DNA of 64,000 nucleotides from Chloroflexota bacterium (GTDB lineage Bacteria > Chloroflexota > UBA11872 > VXOZ01). Both the position numbers and the translations under genes were made by a program. Below are positions 34,002 to 36,136 of the stretch, piece by piece (position 1 is the stretch's first letter; each line of letters begins with the position of its first letter). Where the stretch lies: positions 386,915-450,914 of the forward strand of contig CATQHC010000002.1 of the NCBI GenBank assembly GCA_958295775.1, given 5' to 3'. The notes below the pieces were generated by a model. It searched no databases and was not told the origin of the DNA. It saw nothing but the letters and a program-made list of their open reading frames with translations.

Positions 34002-34393
34002 GCTCAGCCCTTGGACGCGCGTGTGTGCTGATGACCTTGCAAGCCACTGGTTTCAAATGGCAGATTCCCAATTGCGGCACGGTGCTACCACTTCTTAGAT
34101 TTACATAATAGTCTTGCTGCGGAGAATCCATATTCCACACAAATCACAAAACGCACTGCTGCCGGCGGCCTCAATCTTGACCGAGAGGGGGAGCCCTTTG
34201 GGCATCAGCGATTGCATCACTGATTATATGTACGGTACATCTTTCTACGAGTTCCTGCAATTGCTCTGAGCAGAACACAAGGCCCGGAATTCCGCCGGTT
34301 GTGCTCTGAACTCTGAGCGGCCCAAGGTCGGGCGTGCTATGTGCTACCATGCAGGCAGAATGTCGGTCGAATTAGGCAGATTGTTGGGTGTGA
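34002..34393. other. Divergent intergenic region with hairpin
   Basis: A 392-base gap between the MFS exporter (-) and the ECF-sigma fusion (+). It carries the hairpin at 34272-34307 and a direct repeat CTCTGAGC (34264-34271 and 34311-34318) around it. No gene is seen. Confidence 0.5.
34272..34307 (+). promoter_or_regulatory. Hairpin flanked by direct repeats upstream of the sigma-factor gene
   Basis: AGAACACAA (34272-34280) pairs with TTGTGCTCT (34299-34307) at 8 of 9 positions, and the loop contains the palindrome CGGAATTCCG (34285-34294). CTCTGAGC occurs on both sides. It lies about 90 bases before the start of the sigma-propeller gene, so it may be an operator or an RNA structure in the leader; the function is inferred only from position. 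Confidence 0.35.
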
Positions 34394-36136
34394 ATGCTTG
34401 CTAATCGGGGGCGAATTCTCGCGGCTGCTGAAGGCGGCGATCGGGAGGCATTTCTTGGGCTTTACGATCAGTTCTGCCCAATGCTCTATCGCTTCTTCTT
34501 CTGGCTCACTGGAAACGAGAGTGAGGCGCGCGAGCTTGTAGTTGCCACTTTTCGCCGGGCCTATGGCGCGTTCCGCAAACGGCCGCGCACCATGGTACTA
34601 GACACCTGGTTTTACCGGATGGCGGTAAAGACTTTCCTGGCATCCGCGCGCTGGCAGAGGCTGGTCCGCCGCGCGCCGGGTCCGGTGGAGTTCGAGGACC
34701 GCACCATGGACTGGCGCAGGGCTGTGATTGCGCTGCCGCCGCGCTTGCGCGTCGTTTTGCTGCTCATCCTGGCTGAAGGCATGCCGCAGAGCCAAACGGC
34801 AGAGGCCCTTGGCGTTTCGCTCGAAAGAGCTGAATCCTTGTTTGAACGGGCCCGCGCGGCGTACCGCCCGCCGGATCCGGACGCCGACCGTCCAGCAGTC
34901 GAGCGCGTCATGCGCCAATTGCGTGCGCCTCGTCCCGGCGCGACGTTGCGAGCTGAGGTCGCTGCCGCGCTTGGCGCCGGCGACACTTCGTTGAGAATTC
35001 GGCTGCTGCAGGGCGGGATTGGGCTGATGGTGATCTTGCTCGCGGTGTCCGTTGGTTTTTCTCTCTTTCGCGGCGATGAGGAATCAGTGGCGTTACCGGA
35101 AGGGGCCGATGCCGAGCCAAAAACAATTGTTGTGCTTGGTACGGCTGACATTGGTGCGCTCCTCGCCTTCAATGCCAACGACTTGAGACCGTCGTCCCTC
35201 ACGGGAGTGGGTAATGTGCCGCGGGCACTCGCCCTCACTGCGGATAACAAGACTCTCTATGTCTTACAGGAAGACGGGCTACTCACCGTAGATGCACAGT
35301 CGCAACAAGTGGGCCCCATAGTTCAGTTGCCGGACCAGGACTGGAGCAGTTTGGCGGTTACGGGACTGTATGTGGTGCTTGGCTCGCACACTGCGACATC
35401 GCTCGTGACAATTGATGAAAGCAATGAGCTCTTGACAGACATTCCTCTCCCGTGGTCGGTTGACAGGCTGATGCCGCTCAGTGAGAGCGCCGTCCTTGCC
35501 GTGGCGACCGACCGAACGCAAATGGCGCGCGTTACATTGGATAACCAAACCGTGGGTGACGCCATAACCATTGGAGCTGGCTTGGTGATAGGCGCGGTTG
35601 TGCTTGCTGCTGATGGGCTTGCCGCCTACGTGACCACACCGGAGACTGACGAGATTTGGCGTGTTGATCTTGATTCGAGTCAGGTCATTCTCTTTGCTAC
35701 CACTCCGGCTGCTCGTGCCACGTATGGGCTACTCAGCGAAGACGGCGCAATCCTCTATCTGGGCAGCGAAGTGGGACCGATTGCCGATGAGCCAAGCGAA
35801 GACAGTGCTTCAGAGAGTTCGGATGTAAAGAGCAGTGTCCCGCCAAGCAAGGATTCATCAGAAGAGAATTCCGAGAATGAGGAGGCGGCAGAAGAGCCAG
35901 CGGCACCTGCGCTCTCGATGATAAATACGGTTGACGGCAGCGTGGAGCGTCAATTGTGGCAAGGCGGCGGCATCACCCAGATGGCTCTGGATCCTGAAAG
36001 AAACATCCTCTACGCCCTAGCACCGCATGCACGTGCGATTCTTATTTTGGATTCGCGCACGTTTCATGTGCGCAACGTAGTGCCGCTGCCAATGCGTGCC
36101 GTGATGTTCACTCTCGTAGCAAGTGAGACTAACTAA
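34394..36136 (+). CDS. ECF-type sigma factor fused to transmembrane segment and extracytoplasmic beta-propeller
   Basis: A 580-residue protein. Residues about 15-85 match sigma-70 region 2 (REAFLGLYDQFCPMLYRFFFWLTG, then FRRAYGAFRKRP) and 104-157 match region 4 (IALPPRLRVVLLLILAEGM...TAEALGVSLERAESLFERARA). A single membrane helix spans about 206-225. The remaining ~350 residues form repeated YVL/LYVLQ blades of a propeller outside the cell, interrupted at about 464-505 by an acidic Ser/Glu-rich linker. A typical ECF sigma is ~180 residues with no membrane part. No separate anti-sigma gene is adjacent, so the propeller may act as a built-in sensor. That last step is inference. Confidence 0.87.
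   Translation: MLANRGRILAAAEGGDREAFLGLYDQFCPMLYRFFFWLTGNESEARELVVATFRRAYGAFRKRPRTMVLDTWFYRMAVKTFLASARWQRLVRRAPGPVEFEDRTMDWRRAVIALPPRLRVVLLLILAEGMPQSQTAEALGVSLERAESLFERARAAYRPPDPDADRPAVERVMRQLRAPRPGATLRAEVAAALGAGDTSLRIRLLQGGIGLMVILLAVSVGFSLFRGDEESVALPEGADAEPKTIVVLGTADIGALLAFNANDLRPSSLTGVGNVPRALALTADNKTLYVLQEDGLLTVDAQSQQVGPIVQLPDQDWSSLAVTGLYVVLGSHTATSLVTIDESNELLTDIPLPWSVDRLMPLSESAVLAVATDRTQMARVTLDNQTVGDAITIGAGLVIGAVVLAADGLAAYVTTPETDEIWRVDLDSSQVILFATTPAARATYGLLSEDGAILYLGSEVGPIADEPSEDSASESSDVKSSVPPSKDSSEENSENEEAAEEPAAPALSMINTVDGSVERQLWQGGGITQMALDPERNILYALAPHARAILILDSRTFHVRNVVPLPMRAVMFTLVASETN

Follow-up and report, generated by a model that had tools for sequence, protein, structure and literature searches.

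The fusion gene and its orthologues

The 64,000-nucleotide stretch of DNA analysed here (the window) carries on its plus strand a gene for a single protein chain in which sigma regions 2 and 4 are followed by a predicted transmembrane helix and a beta-propeller (Table 1). The reading frame runs from an ATG at 34394 to a stop codon ending at 36136, and a TGA stands in frame directly 5′ of the gene. Upstream lies a divergent gene for an MFS transporter; downstream, a gene for a TIM-barrel protein is convergent and is followed by one for an SDR dehydrogenase. The three long relatives that were compared share this gene order, and the fusion is therefore probably a single-gene unit. No anti-sigma gene adjoins it, in keeping with a preliminary description of the locus that had proposed sensor and transcription factor in one protein, with no separate anti-sigma.

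Table 1. Positions in the window of the fusion gene, its parts and an upstream element
Feature	Residues	Position	Strand	Evidence
Extended -10-like element TGCTACCAT (TGnTAnnnT)		34342..34350	+	conserved in 6/6 upstream regions
Whole gene, sigma2-sigma4-TM-propeller fusion	580 aa	34394..36136	+	ORF and orthologues
Sigma region 2	23-86	34460..34651	+	Pfam, alignment, AF2
Sigma region 4	107-155	34712..34858	+	Pfam, alignment, AF2
Post-sigma4 cytoplasmic segment	159-200	34868..34993	+	alignment, AF2
Single transmembrane helix (predicted)	~201-226	34994..35071	+	hydropathy, AF2 helix 198-226
Acidic stalk	227-242	35072..35119	+	alignment
Beta-propeller, YVTN/YncE type	243-576	35120..36121	+	NCBIfam, AF2, PDB match
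Acidic Ser-rich low-complexity insert within the propeller	460-504	35771..35905	+	alignment, fast evolving

One full-length copy occurs in each of the six genomes of the genus, and the orthologues are 60-67% identical to the query protein; four of them were found in Chloroflexota MAGs by a contig scan. Outside the genus, a 400-genome Chloroflexota sample gave no full-length alignment. Since full-length orthologues are present in all six congeneric genomes, dN/dS is far below 1 and synteny is kept, the fusion is a real gene and not an artefact of gene prediction. An antisense frame within it (34612-35250, minus strand, 212 aa) is open at the same place in three orthologues (~214 aa); it was set aside as a gene and is most likely a codon-usage shadow.

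Mean pairwise identity among the six orthologues is 81% in sigma2 and 81% in sigma4, 79% in the post-sigma4 segment, 71% in the membrane helix, 49% in the stalk, 64% and 80% in the two propeller parts and 41% in the low-complexity insert. Over five pairs, dN/dS of the sigma part is 0-0.19, with dS near saturation in the more distant pairs. Strong purifying selection of this kind argues that the sigma part is functional, whether or not as a sigma factor. These values also bear on the idea that the protein works through its propeller alone, and that the sigma-derived part, left over from its ancestor, does no more than anchor it and takes no part in transcription. The degenerate contact residues described below would fit such an anchor, but sigma2 and sigma4 match the best-conserved propeller part in identity, exceed the rest of it and are held at low dN/dS, and we consider this explanation highly improbable.

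Profile matches and predicted fold of the sigma part

The sigma-70 regions 2 and 4 named in the preliminary description were recovered by profile search. Sigma70_r4_2 matches with 34.8 bits against a Pfam cut-off of 25.7, and Sigma70_r2 with 20.7 bits, slightly under its cut-off of 24; both are matched in all six orthologues, with best E values of 1.6e-10 and 1.8e-6, respectively. PhyR_sigma-like matches occur in five of the six (best E=0.0021) and are far weaker than those of Sigma70_r4_2. Pfam searches of the six orthologues also returned HTH_23, HTH_28 and HTH_29, and found no receiver domain in the fusion protein.

An AF2 model of residues 1-230 only, built from 37 input sequences, has the fold of an ECF sigma factor (mean pLDDT 86), with four sigma2 helices, four sigma4 helices, short helices at 166-174 and 185-192 and a long helix at 198-226. 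Pfam in all six orthologues and AF2/Foldseek thus agree on the ECF (group 4) layout of sigma2 and sigma4 without sigma3. The best Foldseek match of the model is SigW in its closed, RsiW-bound form. The model also resembles other inhibitor-bound ECFs, holoenzyme ECFs score less well, and structures of RpoE, CnrH and PhyR are among the matches. The closed form of the model is at most weak evidence of built-in inhibition, and it may stem from the training data, in which inhibitor-bound ECF structures are numerous.

Core and promoter contact residues

For the residue comparison, the six sigma parts were aligned with 34 Chloroflexota ECFs, which were nearest matches or came from an ECF list, so that this reference sample is biased to similarity. 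Region 2.2 touches core RNA polymerase through a DxxDxxQE motif (PMC13147305), and the DAED part of region 2.2 has been termed essential to holoenzyme formation (PMC8103513). In the fusion protein this stretch reads E44-A45-R46-E47-L-V-V50-A51; DxxDxxQE is absent from all six orthologues, which share E/DxxE/AxxV/IA with R46 invariant. Position 50 is V or I throughout, as in none of the 34 references; 24 of these have Q, so that the Q is not strictly invariant even among true ECFs. Position 51 is A in every orthologue, as in one reference, while D or E stands there in 25.

Promoter contacts are changed as well. The equivalent of N80 of E. coli sigmaE, a -10 contact, is K79 here and K or R in all six orthologues, against N in 28 of the 34 references. 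In the -35 helix of sigmaE, R171, S172, R173 and R176 touch DNA (PMC6713349). The corresponding recognition helix (143-156) carries E144, R145, E147, E151, R152 and R154. At position 147, the R171 equivalent, all six orthologues have E or D, and none of the references is acidic; at position 151, the F175 equivalent, all six have E, again as in none of the references. The R173 equivalent is L, W or M, with L also in 13 references. The equivalents of S/T172, R176 and R178 are kept, and those of F53 and W72 are retained.

Core and promoter residues taken together do not bear out the view in the preliminary description that regions 4 and 2 appear to have kept their motifs well enough to bind core RNA polymerase, since all six proteins have V/I and A at the Q and E positions of DxxDxxQE and several promoter contacts are replaced. 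The same description had held that substitutions at core-binding residues in all relatives would speak against its proposal; this pattern is present at the Q and E and does not extend to the acidic pair, which keeps E/D44 in all six orthologues and E47 in five (A in one). Because key contact residues are changed, the sigma part may differ in function from an ordinary sigma factor. E/D144-R145 aligns without a gap with the E-R of region 4.2 in the sigmaA of the same genome, and promoter contact may for this reason be altered rather than lost; as far as the alignment goes, the -35 helix may still recognise DNA, at a different sequence. An argument that acidic residues at 144, 147 and 151 exclude DNA binding was dropped, as the match of 144-145 to sigmaA leaves only 147 and 151 odd.

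The net charge of the -35 helix is 0, compared with a mean of +2.8 in the reference ECFs. ToxR-type regulators combine a cytoplasmic HTH, one transmembrane segment and an outside sensor, and the fusion has the same topology. A tethered ToxR/CadC-like regulator, in which the anchored sigma4 helix-turn-helix would bind DNA and not serve as an RNA polymerase subunit, would also suit the HTH matches and the higher score of region 4 relative to region 2. However, region 2 is as conserved as region 4, which is unexpected if the HTH alone were important, and the recognition helix lacks the net positive charge of its references. We regard such a regulator as unlikely.

In a sigma-domain tree with the 34 reference ECFs, the longest stem (1.90 substitutions per site, support 1.0) is that of the fusion family, whose inner branches are short. 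Change along the stem followed by constraint is the outcome expected of a shift in role or promoter specificity, and is not decay.

Membrane helix, stalk and propeller

A hydrophobic helix at ~200-225 is present in all six orthologues, is their only strong shared hydrophobic segment by hydropathy and coincides with the AF2 helix at 198-226, in agreement with the transmembrane helix near 206-225 of the preliminary description. Basic residues precede the helix and acidic ones come after it, and we infer that the N-terminus lies inside and the propeller outside the cell. With this placement, Pfam, hydropathy/AF2 and the PDB match reproduce the architecture originally described.

Two short helices are predicted in the post-sigma4 segment, which is possibly a built-in inhibitor or a linker. 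Pfam and NCBIfam searches, with the six orthologues included, gave no match to an anti-sigma domain in the extension. The segment was also considered as a relic of the zinc-finger anti-sigmas beside related ECFs of the class; it looks alike by eye (RQ.SAPkP...), but its profile matched no anti-sigma in 1636 ORFs. The acidic, variable stalk outside the membrane is a candidate site-1 cleavage region.

A separate AF2 model of the full-length protein, from six input sequences, has an overall pLDDT of 50 and was used for the propeller part only; it is confident over residues 310-440 (pLDDT ~80-90). The best PDB match of the propeller is 1l0q, a YVTN propeller from an archaeal S-layer protein (E=5.6e-11), and NCBIfam gives a weak YncE propeller match in the C-terminal part. 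By sequence the propeller is YVTN/YncE-like rather than WD40, with about seven blades when the repeats are counted by reading. In a search of the class for a paralogous or stand-alone relative, general YVTN/YncE propellers alone scored, and weakly. The genus also encodes propeller proteins of 545 aa (L033:12-1646, L034) with an N-terminal hydrophobic helix and a carboxypeptidase-regulatory-like domain, a family distinct from the fusion.

Sigma factors, anti-sigmas and proteases of the genome

By PF04542 and TIGR02937, the genome encodes three proteins with region 2 and region 4: sigmaA, a 245-aa sigma-like protein and the fusion. Two congeneric genomes carry one additional ordinary ECF of ~210 aa. 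Relatives in the class and phylum have 2 to 37 sigma matches, most of them exceeding the numbers in the genus, which is unusually poor in sigma factors for a Chloroflexota genome of 3.4 Mb. The 245-aa protein (L046:1261-1995; G000:C3:39000) matches phage-type sigma PHROGs and has no Pfam region 2 above cut-off; its gene adjoins a LexA-like gene and occurs in five of the six genomes of the genus.

In none of the genus's six genomes did zf-HC2 give a match above cut-off, and RskA_C and NepR had no matches in the fusion's own genome. This genome contains candidates for an M50 site-2 protease and three trypsin-like proteases of the HtrA/DegS superfamily. Such M50 and trypsin-like proteases occur in most bacteria. 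The M50 candidates lend little weight to a release of the sigma part, because M50 proteases were found in all control genomes.

Proposed mechanism and comparison with known systems

The explanation that we favour, tentatively and with less than even confidence, is a transmembrane regulator in one chain that descends from an ECF sigma factor and whose active but altered sigma part is released from the membrane. The sequences show the order of the domains, the membrane helix, the conserved fusion, purifying selection, the altered contacts and the lack of the anti-sigma types sought; the mode of action given next is inferred. The outside propeller would bind a ligand or partner, and upon this signal the flexible stalk and after it the membrane helix would most likely be cut by regulated intramembrane proteolysis. 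A site-2 protease would thereby free the sigma2-sigma4 module, which would engage RNA polymerase through altered contacts to core and promoter. Release of an active sigma is consistent with the region 2 and 4 matches and the fusion itself in all six genomes, the ECF-like AF2 fold, the membrane helix, the propeller and the low dN/dS. It also fits the few other sigmas and the lack of zf-HC2, RskA_C or NepR matches in a genome with M50 and trypsin-like proteases, the kept contacts (R176, R178, S/T172, F53, W72, E44/E47) and the E/D144-R145 match to sigmaA. Against it stand the loss of the core motif Q and E and the replaced N80, R171 and F175 equivalents; moreover, M50 proteases are widespread and the closed AF2 form may be a training-data effect.

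The release model also has precedents. According to PMC8999054, IutY of Pseudomonas putida (ECF243) is a TM-fused ECF for which activation by proteolysis has been shown, and for the TM-fused ECF48, ECF52 and ECF53 (e.g. SCO4117) it has been proposed. Like these, the fusion joins an ECF sigma, a transmembrane segment and an outside part in one chain. However, their extensions are anti-sigma-like or contain a zinc-finger anti-sigma domain, and in the fusion neither a zinc-finger nor a CSS type is recognisable; unlike them, it has a propeller as its outside part and altered sigma contacts. PMC8999054 also lists ECF57 as an ECF with a WD40-like C-terminal extension, and the fusion likewise carries a C-terminal propeller-type repeat domain. 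In ECF57, two conserved cysteines are described as a link between sigma2 and sigma4, whereas the six orthologues of the fusion have no conserved cysteine, and the fusion propeller is of YVTN/YncE type and is separated from the sigma part by a TM helix. In fold and family, the C-terminal part matches YncE and YVTN S-layer propellers best, but the fusion propeller differs from them in its acidic low-complexity insert. To our knowledge, such propellers are not found in any other sigma-like fusion. TM-fused and WD40-extended ECFs have thus already been described, and the overall plan of the fusion is a variant of those. As judged by sequence comparison, it differs from them in the lack of a recognisable anti-sigma part and of the ECF57 cysteines, in the propeller type and in the altered contacts.

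A PhyR-like role outside sigma function falls only slightly short of the released altered sigma in likelihood. The sigma-like domain of PhyR has degenerate promoter and core regions (PMC8103513), and the fusion resembles it in combining an ECF fold with degenerate contacts and in its Foldseek match. In such a role, which we hold to be a serious though somewhat less than probable possibility, the module would no longer be a sigma factor, and its ECF fold would bind an unrecognised anti-sigma, or RNA polymerase/sigmaA, under propeller control at the membrane. The loss of Q and E and the changes N80 to K/R, R171 to E/D and F175 to E in all six orthologues would suit this, as would the PhyR_sigma-like matches and the long stem followed by tight conservation, a pattern of role change. 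However, PhyR, of the alphaproteobacterial general stress response, is a soluble protein that has NepR as its partner and contains a receiver domain, while the fusion has no receiver. The genome has no match to NepR, zf-HC2 or RskA_C and no canonical stand-alone ECF to be freed, the PhyR_sigma-like match is far below that of Sigma70_r4_2, and R176, R178 and E44/E47 are retained. A further reading, a membrane-anchored sigma mimic, is conceivable but rather doubtful: an ECF would have been captured into a transmembrane receptor, would have shed its standard core and promoter contacts on one stem branch, and would thereafter have been fixed as a signalling domain of a new type that the outside propeller reads out.

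One fused chain may replace a whole ECF/anti-sigma pair in a genome with only sigmaA and one small sigma-like protein besides. If the sigma part is active, the gene would be a one-gene sensor-to-promoter device with propeller input; if it is inactive, a sigma fold would have been turned into a non-sigma membrane signalling domain, as so far described for the soluble PhyR.

Upstream elements

The extended -10-like element stands ~44 nt ahead of the start codon, and its sequence suggests sigmaA-type transcription of the fusion gene over ECF autoregulation. Farther upstream, at 34228-34263, lies the palindrome ATGTACGGTACAT with TTCCTGCAATTG after it, an arrangement kept upstream of most orthologues. 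On the minus strand this region reads TTGCAG-N17-TACCGT, and it may serve the divergent MFS gene as promoter and operator.
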